Made by a program: the position numbers and the translations under genes
Notes under the pieces: generated by a model
What the model was told of the DNA's origin: nothing
Database searches by the model: none
The model's input: only the letters and a program-made list of their open reading frames with translations
Origin: Gemmatimonadetes bacterium SCN 70-22
GTDB lineage: Bacteria > Gemmatimonadota > Gemmatimonadetes > Gemmatimonadales > Gemmatimonadaceae
DNA: 64,000 nt
NCBI GenBank assembly: GCA_001724275.1
Contig: MEDZ01000005.1
Span: 1-64,000 of the forward strand
Direction of reading: 5' to 3'
Shown here: positions 1 through 8,331 of the stretch, piece after piece
Position numbering within the stretch: position 1 is the stretch's first letter
How the letters are laid out: every line of letters begins with the position of its first letter

Positions 1-95
1 CGCCGGCGTGAACCGGCCGCGCGAACGCGGATAGTGCGGCTGACGACGGCGCCGGAGTCTCGGACGGACATGTTTCAGACCTATTCAGAGCTTCC

Positions 96-218
96 CTAGG
101 CGGGATGTACGTCGAAGCGCTTCGCCAGCGCCAGGAAAATGCCTTCGTTGCGCACGGCCGCCCAGGCGAGTCTCGCCTCAAAAGCCGGAGCATGGTTCCG
201 ATGGGGGCGTTTCGGCAT
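96..218 (-). pseudogene. IS3-family transposase OrfA, N-terminal remnant
   Basis: Read on the minus strand from an ATG at 218-216 to a TAG at 98-96, this gives about 40 residues that begin MPKRPHRNHAP and end KRFDVHP. That is the usual start of an IS3-family OrfA helix-turn-helix protein: a basic N-terminus, then A-F-E-A-R-L-A, then F-D-V-H-P. The family normally runs to about 90-100 residues, so this copy stops after the first helices. AAGGAG lies just upstream of the ATG (minus strand), a good ribosome binding site. The remainder of the element is not visible here, so this is a relic. Assignment rests on recalled family patterns. Confidence 0.6.
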
Positions 219-775
219 CGTGGGCTCCTTCGGTTCGGAGCGAACTTGTCGCCGGGAGAGCCCACCGTCTACTCAACCACCCTGTTCAGAAAAGCGAAGC
301 CACTTCACTGCGCAGATTCAGTATTCAATCGGTGCAAACAGACGCAGGGCGACCGCGCCGAAGGCGCGGAGATCTTTCTCGAAGAACGGTCGGGGCGTCT
401 GCGCGATTCGCTTCAATTCCGTGGATACGCGCCGTCTACCAGCTTCTACCAGCGGCTCCTCGCCCGCGACGGGTAGCGTCCTGACGCGTCTTGGGGCAAC
501 AAGTCCCGTCCCCCAGACTCATAGGGGCGGCGGCTGGAGAAAGCTCGTCGAGTCCGGAGGGGCGTCGCGGAGACGCCGACACCACGCAGCCGTGAAGTGG
601 CAGTTGCGTTCTCCGTGGCGTTCAGGTGTCACGTCGTTTCAAGGGATGGTGAGTCCGACCCTCTGCGTTCTGTCGGGTCACGCGGTGTAGTAGTACGCGC
701 GTCCCTTGTGTCGGCGTCGTTCATCTTTCAGCTTCGACGACGTTCGGTTTCCTTGATTCCAGCAACCCGCAACAC
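219..775. other. No gene recognised between IS remnant and thioredoxin gene
   Basis: Open frames exist on the plus strand but are Arg/Ser/Pro-rich and match no family I know. The only structure seen is a 10-bp tandem repeat (TCTACCAGCT/G) at 435-454. The end nearest 775 probably carries the promoter of the thioredoxin-like gene. Confidence 0.5.
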
Positions 776-1252
776 ATGACTAGGCGCGCCATCTTCGCCA
801 CGCTCGGCGCCGCAGTCTTCGTGGTAGCGGCGGCGGCCCTGCTGCTTGGCCGCCGGCCGCCGCAACTCGCCGAACACACCGTCGCGCCAGCGACCGGTCC
901 GCGCGGCGAGCCGAACCCTGGCGGCTTCGTTGCGAGCGACGTCGCCCGTCTGGCCGCGACGGGGCGCCCGCAGCTTGTCGAGGTCTTCCACTACGGCTGA
1001 ATGGGCTGCCAGAAGATGGCGCCCGTCGTGCACGGGCTCGAGAAACTTTACGAGGGTCGGGTGGACTTCCTCTACCTCGACATGCTGAACGAGAAGAACA
1101 AGCCGACGATGAAGCGGCTCGGCTTCCAGTCCACGCCGCACTTCTTCTTCCTCCGACCGGACGGGACGCCGGTGGAAGCGATTCAGGGCGTCGTGCCGGA
1201 GGACAGCGTGCGCGGCGCTCTGGACCGGCTGCTGGCCGCGGGCAGGCGCTAG
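776..1252 (+). CDS. Thioredoxin-like protein with in-frame UGA (probable selenocysteine, UxxC)
   Basis: Two adjacent frames are one gene if the TGA at 998-1000 is read through. Residues 1-74 start with a membrane anchor or signal (AAVFVVAAAALLLG) and end in VEVFHYG. The next codon is TGA, followed in frame by MGCQKMAP and a full thioredoxin C-half with cis-Pro (STPHFFF) and the usual QGVVPEDSVRGAL end. TGA sits exactly where the first cysteine of the thioredoxin CxxC belongs, giving U75-M-G-C78. With read-through the protein is 158 residues, a normal length for a membrane-anchored thioredoxin. The likely role is a periplasm-facing thiol/selenol oxidoreductase. Alternatives are a nonsense pseudogene, or restart at the ATG directly after TGA; the restart would lose half of the fold. 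No strong ribosome binding site is visible. No sel genes lie in this window. Confidence 0.8.
998..1037 (+). promoter_or_regulatory. Candidate bacterial SECIS hairpin after the UGA
   Basis: Downstream of TGA 998-1000 a perfect 6-bp stem GCCCGT (1021-1026) / ACGGGC (1032-1037) closes a 5-base loop CGTGC. The loop begins 26 nt after the stop codon and has G as its second base, which fits the loose bacterial SECIS description. A competing hairpin pairs GGGC (1003-1006) with GCCC (1021-1024) and GCC (1008-1010) with GGC (1018-1020) around loop AGAAGAT. The two cannot form together. Bacterial SECIS elements vary widely, so this is supportive only. Confidence 0.45.
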
Positions 1253-1301
1253 GCGAACGCGCGGCCGCAGGCTGACGGGCATTGGCGACGCGACGCGCTC
1301 G

Positions 1302-1643
1302 TCAGGCGCCGCGAGGCCAGTACATGATGACACCGACGCCGGCGAGACAGATGAGCGCTCCGAGGACCGACGGCAGATCGGGCTGGTGGCCATCCACCCA
1401 CCAGCCCCAGAGCAGTGAGAGCACGACGAAGACGCCGCCGTAGGCGGCGTACACGCGCCCGAAGTCGTAGCCTGCAGGCTGCAGCGTGGGCAGCACGCCG
1501 TAGGCGAAGAGGATCAGGCCCCCGAGGGCACCGAAGGCCACGCCCCGTCCGTCGCGGAGCCAAAGCCAGACGAGGTACCCGCCGCCCACCTCGCAGAGGC
1601 CCGCCACGAGGAACAGGGCGACCGACTTTGCGAGTGGAGTCAC
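1302..1643 (-). CDS. YnfA/UPF0060-family small membrane protein
   Basis: This is a 113-residue protein if it starts at GTG 1643-1641, close to the roughly 108 residues usual for YnfA. It has four hydrophobic helices: [60 protein letters not shown] and [36 protein letters not shown] and the WPR end are family hallmarks. The frame opens further upstream to 1790, but the extra N-terminus is basic and unlike the family. YnfA relatives resemble small multidrug-resistance exporters, and their substrate is generally unknown. It faces the thioredoxin-like gene, its 3' end 50 bp from that gene's stop. Confidence 0.85.
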
Positions 1644-1949
1644 ACTTCTCGCCCGCGCGGGAGCGAGGATGGACGGGACAGGGCCGTGTCCCTGTTGCGC
1701 GGCACACACGCCGTCAGACCGTCGATGCAGCCGAAGTCGAGGTGCAGCGTGGCCCCTTCCTCCGCACCGAGCGCGACGAGTCGCGCGCACCGCCCGACCT
1801 CCCAGATTCTCATCCCTGCCATTGTCGCCCCCTCGTCAGACGTCCCGCCCCGCACGGGGACACGACGCGAAGTGCGCTCCAAGTTGTAGGGTTCTCGTGG
1901 CCCGGACAACGGCAACGGGCCGACGTACACCCCCGACGAGGCCACGACC
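1644..1949. other. Spacer between divergent YnfA and CCPF genes
   Basis: About 300 bp separate the divergently read YnfA and CCPF genes, so both promoters should lie here. I see a short inverted repeat GGGACA (1675-1680) / TGTCCC (1687-1692) close upstream of the YnfA start, which could be an operator. No convincing ORF is present. Confidence 0.45.
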
Positions 1950-2377
1950 ATGACCGCCGAAGGCAGAACTCCCCCGTCATCGAGCGAGATCCCTATCGCT
2001 TGTGTCTCAGGGGCCATTCCCGCCGCCGAACGGAGCGCGCACTTCCAGCTCGTCGCCCTGCTCTTCGGCACGATGGCGCGCGAACGCCGCGCGCTCTCTA
2101 GGGACACGCTCGCCCGCGACGGCGATGCCGAGAACGCCGACGGCGTCGAAGGCTACGCCTACCGTTTCGACGCCCACGCGTTCGACGACGTCGCACGCTG
2201 GATCGCGAACGAGCGCCTCTGCTGCCCGTTCTTGACCTTCCGCATCGAGCTCACCCCGGAGGCGGGCCGCTGTGGGTGTGGCTTACGGGCCCCAAGGGCA
2301 CGAGCGAGTTCCTCGATGCAGAGATTCCAGCGCAGGCAGGGCTCGCGACTGGCGCGTCGCCGGCCGCGTCAGCCTGA
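1950..2377 (+). pseudogene. CCPF-motif small conserved protein, frameshifted
   Basis: The first frame (from ATG 1950) runs through a region ending DVARWIANERLCCPFLTFRIEL, a cysteine-pair motif I know from small conserved proteins often found near mercury or other metal genes. After LTPE near 2258 the homologous sequence (GGPLWVWLTGPKGTSEFLDAE) continues in the next frame to a TGA at 2375-2377. A single missing base near 2255-2265 would restore one protein of about 142 residues. It is therefore a one-base frameshift mutant or a sequencing error. No biochemical role is known to me. The CC pair suggests metal or thiol chemistry. Confidence 0.6.
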
Positions 2378-2717
2378 GTCGGAAGATTCGAGAGGGACGA
2401 GCGCTGGCCTCTCTGCCGTGACGGATGCCGCCTTCGAACGGGACACCGCCCTAGGAGCGGGCGTCGTCGACGTCGCGTTCCGGGACGATCGGTGGGGACG
2501 AGGAGGTGCACGCTCCAGCGCGTACTTCCCCCGGTCGTCGAACAGGCCGCCCGCGCCCCCAATTTGGGCAGACGGATTCACGCTAAGCGAATGGTGCAGG
2601 ACTCGAATAGATGGGAATTTACCGCGCTGCAGGCACGCCTTACGGATGTCCGCAGCGACCGCAGGGTTGCCGACGATGATCAGCGCTGCTCGGTGGTGAG
2701 CGAACCACGAACTGCTC
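2378..2717. other. Intergenic, nothing recognised
   Basis: This stretch lies between the convergent CCPF gene and operon 1. GGTGAG (around 2695) and CTCACC (around 2718) form a weak inverted repeat near the end of the HEAT lipoprotein gene that might aid termination. No gene is supported. Confidence 0.4.
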
Positions 2718-3398
2718 TCACCGCTCCCCTGGGTGGACCGGGACCTGGGAGCGCGCGAGGCGTGCAAGCGCCTCGCGCGCTCCCTCCTTCGCGGCAGTTC
2801 CGCCGCTCGCCGCCGCCCGTCGTAGACCCTCTACGGTCTGGGGCCACTCACCGAGGCGCACGAGCGCGCGCACGGCCGCACCGCGGACTCGGACGCTGGG
2901 ATCCTCGAGTGCGCGGATCAGGGGGGAAACGACGTCGCCAACGTTTTCCGGAATCACGGCCGCGAGCAGTTCGGCCGCGTGCTCGCGCGTGTGCTCGTGC
3001 GCACTATCACTCATCAATCGTACCAAACCAGGCACGGCGGTCGGTGCGAGGCGATTGTGCTGCACGAGTGCGGTGCCGGCCTCGAGGCGCACATCATCGC
3101 TCGTGTCAGCCAGTGCCCGCACGAGCGCAGCGGTGACGCGCGTGGATCGCGGGTGGATCGCCAAGACACTTCCCAACGCCCGGGCGGCAGCGCGTCGCTC
3201 CACGCTGTCGGGCGACTGCTCGAGCTGCCTGATCCACTCCTCGGCCGTTCGCCCGCTGAATCCCGGGTCGGCGGAGCAGCCGAATGCCACCGACAGCAGC
3301 AACACGAGGGTGAGACGCGTGAGCGCTTGTCGGCACGCCGACGCCTCTCGCCGGTGGCTAGGGCCTTCAGGCCGGACGGCGCTGACTCCACTTCTCAT
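2718..3398 (-). CDS. HEAT-repeat lipoprotein, last gene of metal-efflux operon 1
   Basis: This protein is about 226 residues. A basic start, hydrophobic LVLLLSVAFGC and a cysteine form a plausible lipoprotein signal, followed by TAEEWIRQLEQ and then about four HEAT-type repeats (DSVERRAAARALG, DDVRLEAGTALVQH, EHTREHAAELLAAV, PSVRVRGAAVRALVRLG). HEAT repeats form curved solenoids that bind proteins; no catalytic residue is evident. The ATG (3398-3396) overlaps the stop of the HMA-like gene (ATGA), so the two are translationally coupled. Position after the RND, P1B and CDF genes suggests a periplasmic scaffold or adaptor for a metal exporter. That role is inferred. Confidence 0.75.
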   Translation of the reverse strand: MRSGVSAVRPEGPSHRREASACRQALTRLTLVLLLSVAFGCSADPGFSGRTAEEWIRQLEQSPDSVERRAAARALGSVLAIHPRSTRVTAALVRALADTSDDVRLEAGTALVQHNRLAPTAVPGLVRLMSDSAHEHTREHAAELLAAVIPENVGDVVSPLIRALEDPSVRVRGAAVRALVRLGEWPQTVEGLRRAAASGGTAAKEGAREALARLARSQVPVHPGER

Positions 3399-3682
3399 AC
3401 GGCATCCTCTCCCGGAGGTCGGACTCCCCACGGAGCATGATTCGACGTGCCGTGCACGTCCGGATGGGCTGCGGAGATCCCCAGCGGCTGCAGGGCCTTC
3501 ACGATGTTGGCGCGCACATCGTCCGACTGCTCGTGCACGATCCGCACGCGAAAGGCCGCTGACGCCACGGAAACACGGATGACGCCAGCGACGTCCGCGA
3601 GGGCTCCGTGAATGCGCTCCTCGATCCCCTCGCTCGCCGCACCGCGCAGGGGAATTTCCAGCACCACGTGCGTCCCCGTCAT
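3395..3682 (-). CDS. Small cysteine-less HMA-like domain protein
   Basis: The product is 95 residues from ATG 3682; an earlier ATG at 3724 is also possible. The order strand (THVVLEIPL), helix (EGIEERIHGALADVAGV), strand (IRVSVASAAFRVRIV) and helix (DDVRANIVKALQPLGI) matches the beta-alpha-beta-beta-alpha-beta plan of heavy-metal-associated domains. The CxxC metal site is absent, and His at the C-terminal end (AAHPDVHGTSNHAPWG) is the only metal-ligand-rich stretch. It overlaps the downstream HEAT lipoprotein start by ATGA. It may bind metal weakly through His, or act as a protein-docking module. It resembles the cysteine-less N-terminal domains of the P1B ATPase in the same operon. Confidence 0.6.
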   Translation of the reverse strand: MTGTHVVLEIPLRGAASEGIEERIHGALADVAGVIRVSVASAAFRVRIVHEQSDDVRANIVKALQPLGISAAHPDVHGTSNHAPWGVRPPGEDAV

Positions 3683-3839
3683 CGCTCTCCCGCTGTCCGA
3701 TGTCGAGCGCGCCCCGTGTCCCAACCCCCGCTTCCTGGTCCGTCGCGACTGGGAGGGAACGCCGAGGATGCATCAGACGATGCATCATTGGACCCCACAG
3801 AGGACCTGGATCGCCCCACCTGCCGTGCCACTGCGGTGG

Positions 3840-4832
3840 CTACCGTGAAATGCGAGCGAGCGCCGCCGCCGCGGCCTCGCGCGTCCCCCCATCCGGGTCC
3901 GACAGCGCCAGGCGCAATTGCGGCACGGCGGCAGCGGCACGAGGGCCGATTCGTCCGAGCGCGACGGCCGCCGCGACACGCATCCCGAAGTGACCGTCCT
4001 TCAAGGCGCGTCCTAACGCGGGGACTGCGGTCCCGGCGTACTCCCCGTATCGCGCGACGGCGTAAGCGGCTGCCAAACGCACCTGCTCGGAGGAGTCGCT
4101 CAAGGCCGCCACGAGAGCTGGAAGCACAAGTGTTGTTTCCGGTGCAGTCACCATGAGGCTTCGCACTGCCTCGAGTCGCACGGCTGCGTTGGAGTCGCCC
4201 GCGGCCATGACGAGCTCCCGGCGGTACCGCTCGGCATGGGTGCCGCCCAGCCCCACCGATCGCGCCGCGGCGCGGCGCACGCGAGCATCGGCATCCGTCA
4301 GCGCGGCGGCCACCGGCGCAAGGTGATCGCCCTTCGTTGATCCGACCTGACCCAGTATCAACGCAGCCTGCGCGCGAATCCCCGGGTGCTCGTCCCGCAA
4401 CAGCGCGACAAACTGTCCGGAGGCTGCCTGGGCTACGGGACCGAGCTGCACGATTGCGTCGGCTACGGTCCCGTGGAGCTCATCGCGGTCGCCGGCGTCA
4501 AGCACGGCGAGTAGTGCATGCGTCACGGCCGGCGAGCGCGGGGCGGCCCGCACGAAGGCGCCTGCTGCCTGCCGTCGCGTCTCGGCATCCTCACTCTGAA
4601 GGGCCCGCGTCCACGCTGCCACGCTCCGCCCCTCGAAGCGTTCACCGCGCTTCGCGCGCATGAGGCTGGCCGCCAACACCAGTACAGCTCCCGCGACTCC
4701 TATGCCAACAGCGGTCAGCAGCGTCGCCCGCCCGTGCTGCCCCAAGCTCGCCCGGTCCAACGCTCGATGCCCGAGATACACGCTATCTCCACTGGTGGGC
4801 GGCGAGGGTCTCAGCGTTGGAGCCCCGCTCAT
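3840..4832 (-). CDS. Membrane-anchored HEAT-repeat protein
   Basis: This 330-residue protein starts at ATG 4832, which overlaps the CDF stop as ATGA. After about 35 residues comes one membrane helix (LLTAVGIGVAGAVLVLAASL). It is followed by SVAAWTRALQSEDAETRRQAAGAFV and about seven HEAT/PBS-lyase-like repeats of roughly 31-38 residues (HPGIRAQAALILGQVG, DARVRRAAARSVGLGG, AAVRLEAVRSLM, EQVRLAAAYAVARYG, FGMRVAAAVALGRIG, GGTREAAAAALARI). The other HEAT protein of this operon has a similar opening (AEEWIRQLEQSPDSVERRAAARAL), so the pair look like paralogues, one membrane-anchored and one lipid-anchored. The role is probably protein-protein docking. Nothing enzymatic is visible. Confidence 0.8.
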   Translation of the reverse strand: MSGAPTLRPSPPTSGDSVYLGHRALDRASLGQHGRATLLTAVGIGVAGAVLVLAASLMRAKRGERFEGRSVAAWTRALQSEDAETRRQAAGAFVRAAPRSPAVTHALLAVLDAGDRDELHGTVADAIVQLGPVAQAASGQFVALLRDEHPGIRAQAALILGQVGSTKGDHLAPVAAALTDADARVRRAAARSVGLGGTHAERYRRELVMAAGDSNAAVRLEAVRSLMVTAPETTLVLPALVAALSDSSEQVRLAAAYAVARYGEYAGTAVPALGRALKDGHFGMRVAAAVALGRIGPRAAAAVPQLRLALSDPDGGTREAAAAALARISR

Positions 4833-5752
4833 GTGTGTGTCTCCGCCTGTTCCCATCCAGGCGGCTCGACTTGGAGTGTGACATGCACGATCGAGGCGTG
4901 CGCCTCGTTGATGGCGACTTGCGTAGCGCGCAGCACGGTCGCGTGGTCGCTGCCAGGCGCCATGACGACGTGCGCGCTCAGCGCATTCGTCCCCGACGTC
5001 AGCGACCAGACGTGGAGGTCGTGAGCGCCGCTCACGCCCTCTGTGGCCACGACCGTGTCGCGCACTGCCACGAGGTTGACGTCGGCGGGCGTACCCTCCA
5101 GCAGCACGCCGACCGCCTCGCGCAGCAGCCGCCAGGTCCGGGGAAGGATGAACAATCCGATGCCGGCTGACACGAGCGGGTCGGCGTAGTACCACCCCGT
5201 CGTGAGCATGATGACCCCGGCGATGATCACGCCGATGGACGTCAGCATGTCGGAGAGCACCTCGAAATACGCGCCCTTCATGTTGAGGCTTTCGTTCGAC
5301 GCGTCGCGCAGGAGGCGCATGCTGATCAGATTCACCACAAGGCCGACGCCGGCTACCCAGAGCATGGCCCCGCTTTCGACCGCTGGCGGATTGCGGAACC
5401 GCTGCCAGGCCTCGTAGAGGATGTAGAACGATATGCCGAAAAGCACGATTGCGTTGGCCATCGCCGCCAGGATCTCGGTGCGGTAATAGCCGTACGTTCG
5501 TTCGGGCGTCGCCGGTCGCGCCGCGAACCGGATGGCGAAAAGCGCCAACCCGACGCCTGCGACGTCGGTGAGCATGTGGCCCGCGTCAGCGAGCAGCGCG
5601 AGGCTCTTCGTGAGAATCCCGCCGACCACTTCAGCGATGAGGTAGGTGCCAGTCAACACGAGCACGACCGTCAGCTTTCGCTGATGCTTGCCGGAATTCG
5701 TCATTCGACGCTTCCCGGATCTCGCGCCCGCCTCGGGGTCGGAAGTCTGCAT
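4829..5752 (-). CDS. czcD: Cation diffusion facilitator (CzcD-like zinc/cobalt/cadmium exporter)
   Basis: The 307-residue length is normal for bacterial CDFs, with six membrane helices and a C-terminal cytoplasmic domain (HDLHVWSLTSGTNALSAHV). The first transport site is intact (H59-M-L-T-D63 within LLADAGHMLTD). In the TM5 site the usual His is Glu (Y-F-E164-V-L-S-D168), which some CDF subgroups show. The family exchanges cytosolic Zn2+, Co2+ or Cd2+ for protons. The start overlaps the P1B ATPase stop by one base (TGATG) and the end overlaps the HEAT gene, so it is internal to operon 1. It would load the periplasm for CzcCBA. Confidence 0.9.
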   Translation of the reverse strand: MQTSDPEAGARSGKRRMTNSGKHQRKLTVVLVLTGTYLIAEVVGGILTKSLALLADAGHMLTDVAGVGLALFAIRFAARPATPERTYGYYRTEILAAMANAIVLFGISFYILYEAWQRFRNPPAVESGAMLWVAGVGLVVNLISMRLLRDASNESLNMKGAYFEVLSDMLTSIGVIIAGVIMLTTGWYYADPLVSAGIGLFILPRTWRLLREAVGVLLEGTPADVNLVAVRDTVVATEGVSGAHDLHVWSLTSGTNALSAHVVMAPGSDHATVLRATQVAINEAHASIVHVTLQVEPPGWEQAETHT

Positions 5753-8331
5753 CAGTCGACGCCGCGATAGGCGAGGAGGCGGAGTGCGTTGGCGACGACG
5801 ACCAGCGTGCTTCCCTCATGCACGATGACCGCGGTTCCGATCCCGGCGACTCCGGTGACGGTGACCACTATAAGCCCCGCGATCACGCTCAGCGACACGT
5901 AGAGGTTCTGTCGGATGATCGCACGTGCGCGGTGACTGAGGCCGATCGCGAAGGGTAGCTGGCCCAGATCATCGCTCATGAGCGCCACGTCCGCCGTCTC
6001 CAGGGCAGCGGCCGTTCCAGCGCCGCCCATGGCGATGCCGACCGTGGCGTTTGCCAGCGCGGGCGCATCGTTCACGCCGTCGCCGATCATGGCGACCGGA
6101 CCCGTGGCGACGAGCTCCCGGATTGCCTCCACCTTGTCTTCGGGCAACAATCCGGCGCGCACCTCGTCTACGCCCACTGCACGTCCAACGGCATTGCCCA
6201 CCCCGGCATTGTCGCCGGTGAGCATGACGATGCGTGTGATGCCGCTCTTGCGGAGCCGCTCGATCGTCGCCGCCGCGTTCGCCCGCGGTTCGTCAGCGAT
6301 GCCGATAACGCCGAGCCAGCCATCGGTCTGGTCGTCCGTCGACCGCCGCACCACCATCGTTGACCGGCCATTCGCCTCGAGCCGCACGACGTCCGCCCGA
6401 ATCGCTTCGGGCACCAGCATCCCGCGTTCCTCGAACATCAGGAGCCGCCCCACGTCCACGGTATCGGCGCCAACCGACGCTCGGATGCCACGCCCCGTGA
6501 CCGACTGCACCTCGCCCGCTTCGGCGATGGCGAGACCTTTCGTCGCCGCCGCCGCCATGATCGCACGCGCCAACGGATGCTGGGAACGCCGTTCGACTGC
6601 GGCGGTCGTGGCGAGCAGATCGTCCGCCCCGATGCCCGCCGCAGGCACGATATCGGTGACCGCCGGTTCACCCTTCGTGATCGTCCCGGTCTTGTCCAGA
6701 GCGAGCACACGGATCGCGCCGAGCGCCTCCAAGTGCGCGCCTCCCTTGATGAGTACGCCGCGCCGAGCTGCTTGGGCGATACCTGCCAGGACCGCAGAGG
6801 GTGTGCCCAGGGCGAGGGCGCAGGGCGACGCAGCGACCAGCAACGCCATGGCACGATAGAACGCCTCACCCCACGTCCACACGCCGAGCAATGGCGGCAC
6901 CACGATGAGGAGGAGATCGGCCACCAGCACGACTGGAACGAAGATCCTTTCGAAGCGATCCGTGAACTGCTGCGTGGGCGCCTTCTGCGTCTGCGCTTCC
7001 GCCACGAGCTTCACCACACGGTCCAGCGTGCGGTCGCCGAGCGCCGCGGTGACGTTGACCACGAGCACCCCCTCGCCGTTCACCGAACCGGCGAAAACCG
7101 ATTCACCAGGCACCTTCTCCACAGGGACACTTTCGCCGGTGATCGGCGCCTGATTCACCCCCGAACGCCCCTCGGTCACCGTGCCGTCAACCGGGATGCG
7201 TTCGGCCGGCTTCACTACGACGCGGTCCCCCGGTCGCACCTCCTCGATCGCTACCGTCACCTCGCGCGCGACGCCACCCTCGTCGCGCAGGACGACGGCC
7301 CGGGTCGGCGCGAGCTCGGCGAGTGCCTTGATGGCGTTGCGCGCGCGTCCGAGCGCGTAGTGCTCGAGCGCGTGCCCGAGGCTGAAGAGAAAGAGCAGGA
7401 GTGCGCCTTCGAACCACTCGCCCAACACGGCCGCGCCGAGGGCCGCCACAACCATCAACAGGTCGATGTTGAAGTTGAAGCGTCCCTTGCCCAGATCCCG
7501 GAGGAAGTGGGCCACGTTGTCGCGCGCCCCGAAGATGTACGCGCCGACGAAGGCGGCGATCGACGCCATCGGCGCCACGCCGGCGCGCTCCAGCCCCCAC
7601 CCGGCAGCGAGCATGGTTCCCGCCATCAGGCTCCACGCAAGCTCGCGATTGCGGGCGTACCACGAGACATCCGGCTCGGGGCCCTCGATCCGACCCTTCG
7701 CACTGACGTTCGCATTCTCCGCTTCACGAGCGTCGCGACTCGGCAACGGCACGGACGGCATCGCAGCACCCGATGTCACCCCGTTGCCCGCACCGGTGGC
7801 AGCCGCAGTCGGCGCGCGCCGCTCCTGGGCGCCGAGCGCGGCCAATTCGGCGTGAATGGTGGCGAGCGAGATGCGCCGCCGGTCGTACTCGACGCGCGCA
7901 ACCTGCCCGGCCAGGCTGACCGCCGCCGTCGTCACGCCCGGTAACCGCCGGAGGCTCGCCTCGATTCGGCGACCCTCATCCTCCGCGCCGACCAGGTGAA
8001 TGGGGATCACCTCGTGCGCAAAGCGGTCGGTCAGCTGCGCACCGGCGAGACGCGCCAGCTTCTCGATCTGCGCGAGTGACAGCCGCTCGGCGTCGTAGTG
8101 CAGGCACAACTGCGCGCCGCTGGCCCCGTTTGGGGTCGTGTTGGCGGCTGGACGCAACTCCTCGAGCGGAGGCTCGTCATCGGGAAGTGCATCACCGGGT
8201 TGCACCAGATGTACGCTGACGATGTCGGAACGCTTCTCGAGGAGGTGCATGAGACGCGCGACGCACGCGTCACGCGCGTCGGTCACGTCGGGAAGGAGGA
8301 GTGGCAGGTCCAGCCGGGTGGAACGATTCAT
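5752..8331 (-). CDS. P1B-4-type metal ATPase with cysteine-less HMA-like N-domains
   Basis: The 859-residue P-type ATPase has all catalytic motifs: TGES, DKTGT phosphorylation site, SQHPLA, MLTGDN and [10 protein letters not shown]6 carries S502-P-C504 instead of CPC, and a late helix carries HEGST. Together these define the P1B-4 group (cobalt, iron, zinc or nickel export in characterised members). About 200 residues precede the membrane part and contain two HMA-like beta-alpha-beta-beta-alpha-beta units (one ending near LARLAGA, one spanning VIPIHLVGAEDEGRRIEASLRRLPGV-type sequence), neither with a CxxC. The group often lacks such domains, so this extension is unusual. A 108-bp gap separates it from the PII-like gene and a one-base overlap joins it to the CDF gene. 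Confidence 0.9.
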   Translation of the reverse strand: MNRSTRLDLPLLLPDVTDARDACVARLMHLLEKRSDIVSVHLVQPGDALPDDEPPLEELRPAANTTPNGASGAQLCLHYDAERLSLAQIEKLARLAGAQLTDRFAHEVIPIHLVGAEDEGRRIEASLRRLPGVTTAAVSLAGQVARVEYDRRRISLATIHAELAALGAQERRAPTAAATGAGNGVTSGAAMPSVPLPSRDAREAENANVSAKGRIEGPEPDVSWYARNRELAWSLMAGTMLAAGWGLERAGVAPMASIAAFVGAYIFGARDNVAHFLRDLGKGRFNFNIDLLMVVAALGAAVLGEWFEGALLLFLFSLGHALEHYALGRARNAIKALAELAPTRAVVLRDEGGVAREVTVAIEEVRPGDRVVVKPAERIPVDGTVTEGRSGVNQAPITGESVPVEKVPGESVFAGSVNGEGVLVVNVTAALGDRTLDRVVKLVAEAQTQKAPTQQFTDRFERIFVPVVLVADLLLIVVPPLLGVWTWGEAFYRAMALLVAASPCALALGTPSAVLAGIAQAARRGVLIKGGAHLEALGAIRVLALDKTGTITKGEPAVTDIVPAAGIGADDLLATTAAVERRSQHPLARAIMAAAATKGLAIAEAGEVQSVTGRGIRASVGADTVDVGRLLMFEERGMLVPEAIRADVVRLEANGRSTMVVRRSTDDQTDGWLGVIGIADEPRANAAATIERLRKSGITRIVMLTGDNAGVGNAVGRAVGVDEVRAGLLPEDKVEAIRELVATGPVAMIGDGVNDAPALANATVGIAMGGAGTAAALETADVALMSDDLGQLPFAIGLSHRARAIIRQNLYVSLSVIAGLIVVTVTGVAGIGTAVIVHEGSTLVVVANALRLLAYRGVD

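Follow-up and report, generated by a model that had tools for sequence, protein, structure and literature searches.

A covarying hairpin and a conserved in-frame UGA point to an anchored UxxC thioredoxin selenoprotein in Gemmatimonadota and two other phyla

Selenoproteins of the UxxC thioredoxin kind have long been known, for example in Geobacter and Treponema denticola (PMC1794560, PMC13188914). The closest described systems are the selenocysteine (Sec) thioredoxin itself (Trx, PF00085), the Rcas_1661 family thioredoxin-like (seleno)lipoprotein (NF041057), which appears as a DsbG-like protein in PMC13188914, and the thiol:disulfide interchange selenoprotein (PF13098) together with SaoT/HUIPC (NF040730, NF047660). 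The bacterial SECIS (bSECIS) element is modelled as a stem of 4-16 bp with a loop of 3-9 nt and a G in one of the first two loop positions, located 16-37 nt from the UGA and having a minimum free energy of -7.5 or lower (PMC13188914). Gemmatimonadota are without mention in the selenoprotein reviews PMC1794560 and PMC13188914. The gene described here lies in a 64-kb stretch of DNA from this phylum (hereafter the window). Its product shares with the Sec thioredoxin the Trx fold, a UxxC motif with Sec as the N-terminal catalytic residue and a downstream hairpin within the coding sequence. Compared indirectly, the present family stands apart from known Sec thioredoxins by the membrane anchor or lipobox at its N-terminus and by a P-x-V-H-G/R-L-E motif that overlies the hairpin.

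Existing protein models place the family only broadly. The read-through protein matched Pfam Thioredoxin PF00085 (3.7e-7, 30.5 bits, cut-off 23.5) and came barely above the cut-off of Thioredoxin_2 PF13098 (27.8 vs 27 bits), and with 31.5 bits against a cut-off of 96.8 it falls outside the thioredoxin equivalog TIGR01068. With NF041057 the family has in common that it is a Trx-like selenolipoprotein with UxxC; however, the Chloroflexota members reach at most 29 bits (cut-off 190) in matches confined to the N-terminal portion of the model, and the window protein gave no match at E 0.01. The PF13098-type selenoprotein and SaoT/HUIPC are likewise Trx-like with UxxC. When 18 members were searched at E 0.01, the 25 families with the most matches included neither NF040730 nor NF047660, and both were also missing from the match lists of the 13 members scanned singly. 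None of the singly scanned members reached the cut-off of a specific NCBIfam selenoprotein model, NF041057 being the nearest, so the family has no fitting model there. Within the open-access literature, as distinct from subscription papers and supplements, we found no report of the family. We class it as a new subfamily within the known UxxC thioredoxin kind.

Codon 75 of the gene is a TGA, the sole break in an otherwise open frame, and M-G-C78 follows directly (Table 1). The read-through product, MTRRAIFATLGAAVFVVAAAALLLGRR...EVFHYG-U-MGC-QKMAPVVHGLE..., has 158 residues. The first-pass annotation had claimed that two halves in the same frame join into an anchored thioredoxin of this length with the stop exactly at the first CxxC position, and both its coordinates and its description proved right. 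It had also expected gene calling to split the gene, and mechanical ORF calling did cut it into pieces of 74 and 83 aa. Because standard annotation splits the gene in this way, the family is easily missed.

Table 1. Positions of the gene, its predicted functional elements and the adjoining gene in the window
Feature	Position	Strand	Details
Predicted Sec thioredoxin gene	776..1252	+	158 aa, ATG start, TAG stop, one in-frame TGA; Pfam PF00085/PF13098 and homologues
N-terminal hydrophobic helix, probably a membrane anchor that leaves the Trx domain outside	788..847	+	Residues 5-24; model helix H5-24; sequence MTRRAIFATLGAAVFVVAAAALLLGRR
UGA codon, predicted Sec75, first residue of the UxxC active site	998..1000	+	Aligned TGA in 42/42 distinct sequences
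Codon of the resolving Cys78 (TGC), invariant	1007..1009	+	Family alignment
Candidate bacterial SECIS hairpin GCCCGU-CGUGC-ACGGGC	1021..1037	+	6 bp; 5-nt loop 1027-1031
Pro121 codon, cis-Pro position of the Trx fold, invariant	1136..1138	+	Alignment; just ahead of model strand E122-126
YnfA/UPF0060 small membrane protein, convergent neighbour	1302..1646	-	PF02694, 1.3e-39

The conservation of the TGA was followed in several sets of genomes. Among 395 genomes of the phylum, three orthologues with 46-52% identity were found in other Gemmatimonadota genera, all carrying TGA at the identical codon. Within the window's order, 288 genomes searched by profile yielded only the window's gene and those three (4/288). 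The same profile search did not find the gene in the same-genus genomes G089 and G395, and no other member was found in the window's genus. The distribution is patchy, and since these two genomes lack the gene, it appears to be dispensable. When 84,980 species genomes were scanned with peptide patterns, 18 loci were recovered (three from Gemmatimonadota, two from Acidobacteriota and the remainder from Chloroflexota), and the aligned codon was TGA in every one. Both patterns leave out the UGA codon; as one of them overlies the hairpin, the result may be biased towards loci that have it. No such bias affects the profile search of 396 genomes from one Chloroflexota class, in which 29 of the 30 best loci had TGA at the codon; Chloroflexota matches below about 1e-30, which may mix ordinary thioredoxins and terminal stops, were left out. 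Altogether, 42 distinct members read codon by codon have TGA at the position of codon 75 (4 from Gemmatimonadota, with the window counted, 2 from Acidobacteriota and 36 from Chloroflexota). In the phylogenetic tree, Gemmatimonadota and Acidobacteriota stand on one side (support 100/97), opposite Chloroflexota. Neither a scan of viral contigs for relatives nor a single-protein scan of the genome contig collection gave a match.

As the same aligned codon is TGA in every other member read apart from one Cys form, the TGA is more than chance, and a sequencing error is very unlikely to have recurred across independent genomes. This bears out the first-pass view of the gene as a UxxC selenoprotein candidate and not a random nonsense mutation. 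The homologues that it proposed to align at codon 75 turned out to have UGA in three phyla and Cys in one case. This exception, L077, reads TGC, and the 3' side of its hairpin is broken (GAG instead of GGG); tRNA-Sec was not detected in its genome, G756. Taken together, these three features are the pattern expected when Sec has been replaced by Cys. The UGA position also aligns with the Cys of the ordinary thioredoxins L027-L030. Thus, the in-frame UGA coincides with the catalytic Cys of homologues, as is characteristic of selenoproteins. L027-L030 are CxxC proteins in which any TGA that was counted is the natural stop, and they were dropped as evidence for UGA. G756, in which the codon was read in L077 only, has three strong family matches without UGA and no detected tRNA-Sec. 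In addition, a second VHGL-type Trx half-ORF (MAPIVHGLKNEYGDQ) lies in L048 at 4625-4849 (+), about 0.5 kb past the first UGA, which suggests a tandem copy of the selenoprotein gene.

The genome of the window (4.70 Mb in 84 contigs, with an estimated completeness of 99.98%) was searched for selA, selB, selD and tRNA-Sec, as had been advised for checking the candidate, and all four were found. There is one tRNA-Sec, over the Rfam cut-off at 65.6 bits, which ARAGORN assigned as SeC with the anticodon tca, and SelA, SelB and SelD scored 528, 313 and 384 bits, respectively. SelD has an in-frame TGA of its own (CAGUAAKMGPGDL). The Sec form of selenophosphate synthetase carries UxxK (PMC13188914), and the UGA of SelD falls at this known Sec site. 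With tRNA-Sec, SelA, SelB and a UGA-bearing SelD present, the genome has what is needed for decoding UGA as Sec. Moreover, tRNA-Sec was found in 19 of 19 hosts in the first set, which comprised the window's genome, those of the three orthologues and 15 genomes of Acidobacteriota and Chloroflexota. In Chloroflexota it was present in 48 of 49 further hosts of UGA genes compared with 18 of the 31 others that the same search had returned (p 7e-6 by Fisher's test, a value that serves as a guide only because related genomes are not independent). In these 49 hosts the codon was read where the loci had been fetched, and for the others the search had reported an internal TGA. The one UGA host in which no tRNA-Sec was found is G733, a draft genome scanned with strict filters. 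Within Gemmatimonadota, where 280 of 395 genomes already have selA, the co-occurrence of the machinery says little. In G120, the host of L026, tRNA-Sec is present, and selA is absent from the list obtained at E 1e-60.

The machinery also bears on whether the UGA could be decoded in some other way, namely by readthrough with a near-cognate tRNA (Trp or Cys) or through a genome-wide change of the code, so that residue 75 would be Cys or Trp. A misread Cys would be functional, as Cys in L077 is the only substitution seen at the site. However, SelD of the same genome has a UGA at the known Sec site, four family genes (L024, L026, L041 and L042) end in TGA, which implies that UGA is still a stop in those genomes, and the UGA form of the gene tracks the presence of tRNA-Sec. 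We therefore consider such decoding very improbable.

Insertion of Sec would further depend on a signal downstream of the UGA, and a candidate hairpin is located 20-36 nt past it, inside the coding sequence, with 26 nt between the UGA and the loop. Folded alone, this hairpin has an energy of -9.0 kcal/mol and a CGUGC loop with G second, and it agrees with the bSECIS model. Over the 42 distinct sequences, 97.6% of the hairpin cells are paired, and two-sided compensatory changes occur in four of the six pairs (25 cells). None of 500 shuffles matched the observed values of pairing, compensation or covariation, and controls with slid partners were only 9.5-47% paired. Columns 28/36 of the hairpin are either G-C (15 sequences) or A-U (27) with no exception among the 42, and the commonest switch ties the first base of codon 84 (G vs A) to the silent third base of His86 (C vs T) in 42 of 42 sequences. 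A degenerate hairpin motif, built from these same sequences, occurred once in the window and in none of 100 shuffles. The hairpin encodes the conserved protein motif P-V-V-H-G; because this motif is itself conserved, codon conservation in the hairpin is weaker evidence than the covariation. The locus offers a clear example of a SECIS hairpin co-evolving, codon by codon, with the protein that it encodes.

The folding of longer segments was less uniform. Folds of 42 and 60 nt of the window favour a competing structure over the hairpin, and 33-nt folds of L024, L037, L026, L043, L045, L048, L049 and L053 likewise favour another structure. The hairpins of L045 and L049 are weak, with 4 bp left, and the isolated hairpins of L039, L045, L049 and L053 fall short of the bSECIS energy limit. 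No Rfam family matched within window positions 1-6000.

That the TGA is an ordinary nonsense mutation in a decaying pseudogene, or an assembly error, would be in line with the fact that no other member was found in the genus and with a nearby ORF (1950-2380) that looks frameshifted, a possible sign of errors or decay close by. However, TGA stands at the same codon in dozens of independent genomes from three phyla, the members are nearly always without a further stop in frame, and the hairpin covaries. The recurrence in effect refutes this explanation, to which we give next to no credence.

We modelled the protein with AlphaFold2, taking U as Cys. An N-terminal helix occupies residues 5-24 of the model, and the thioredoxin domain, which begins at about residue 52, is predicted with confidence (pLDDT > 90 throughout). 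Residue 75 is placed just ahead of helix 76-91, and Pro121 ahead of strand 122-126. As expected for the Trx superfamily, the CxxC position opens the helix that follows the first central strand, and the cis-Pro is in place; thioredoxins were the top PDB matches both by fold and by profile. It is scarcely credible that the locus instead encodes two proteins, an anchor peptide of 74 residues and, starting from the ATG at 1001, a C-terminal Trx fragment of 83 residues. This ATG, which directly follows the TGA, is found at that codon in the window only (others have ATC, CTN, CCG, GGN, ACN etc.), and neither half would suffice for the modelled fold, in which strand E66-71 together with the active-site loop spans the UGA.

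The N-termini of the family point to a location outside the cytoplasm. All 12 Chloroflexota members aligned with an N-terminus have a lipobox-like sequence (e.g., LLAGC or VLAAC) and look like lipoproteins, and in the members from Gemmatimonadota the N-terminal segment is hydrophobic. These N-termini suggest that the redox domain is probably outside the cytoplasmic membrane; for the window protein, the orientation of the anchor is deduced from its positive N-terminus.

By all computational criteria the protein is a real selenoprotein of the UxxC thioredoxin type, and we infer that it almost certainly carries Sec. From the computed frame, UGA conservation, machinery, covarying hairpin and Trx fold, we are highly confident in regarding it as a membrane-anchored extracytoplasmic thioredoxin with catalytic Sec75-Met-Gly-Cys78, in which Sec is delivered by SelB and directed by the in-coding hairpin. 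SelD, SelA and tRNA-Sec would supply the Sec-tRNA, and SelB would bring Sec to the UGA, guided by the hairpin 20-36 nt downstream. By analogy with other UxxC thioredoxins, the Sec selenol would then attack disulfides and Cys78 would resolve the selenenylsulfide.

Judging from the gene's context, the protein probably serves disulfide chemistry outside the cytoplasm, which may be tied to metal handling. A YnfA/UPF0060 gene adjoins the family gene in three of the four Gemmatimonadota (the window, L037 and L040), convergent in the window and in the same direction in L037, with a four-base GTGA overlap, and in L040. A CDF exporter, a heavy-metal P-type ATPase and an RND efflux set are encoded within a few kb beyond the window gene. 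Elsewhere, an OEP gene lies close to the copies in L036 and L040, HMA and heavy-metal ATPase genes lie close to L042, an SCO1 gene is located just upstream in L045, and TlpA-like genes adjoin L042 and L050. No promoter- or terminator-like sites were found at the gene. The neighbouring metal-efflux and YnfA genes suggest that the protein may take part in the thiol and metal chemistry of the envelope. More broadly, and only tentatively, the family may represent an as yet unnamed subfamily of extracytoplasmic thioredoxins, with Sec in nearly all members, in Chloroflexota, Gemmatimonadota and Acidobacteriota. Its SECIS hairpin would be built into the conserved P-x-V-H motif, and its function would be connected, along with YnfA or metal-efflux genes, to metal-thiol chemistry. 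The family adds a thioredoxin subfamily almost always in Sec form, from phyla with little-described selenoproteomes, and it leads to the prediction that selenium supply influences cell-envelope thiol chemistry in these bacteria.

Several further observations were made around these loci. The start of the Acidobacteriota copy in L038 is overlapped by a small hydrophobic protein (1-309, +) that contains a CGVCC motif and has no Pfam match. The window ORF at 1950-2380 (+), the first part of which had no Pfam match, seems frameshifted near 2265, where ERLCCPFLTFRIEL continues as GPLWVWLTGPKGTSEFL in another frame. Two neighbouring HEAT-repeat proteins are encoded at 2718-4745 (-), between YnfA and the metal transporters. 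The region 4829-35000 is rich in metal-efflux genes (CDF, P-type ATPase, two RND sets and a CopC-CopD fusion), and a gene for a P-II-like protein adjoins an RND pump there.
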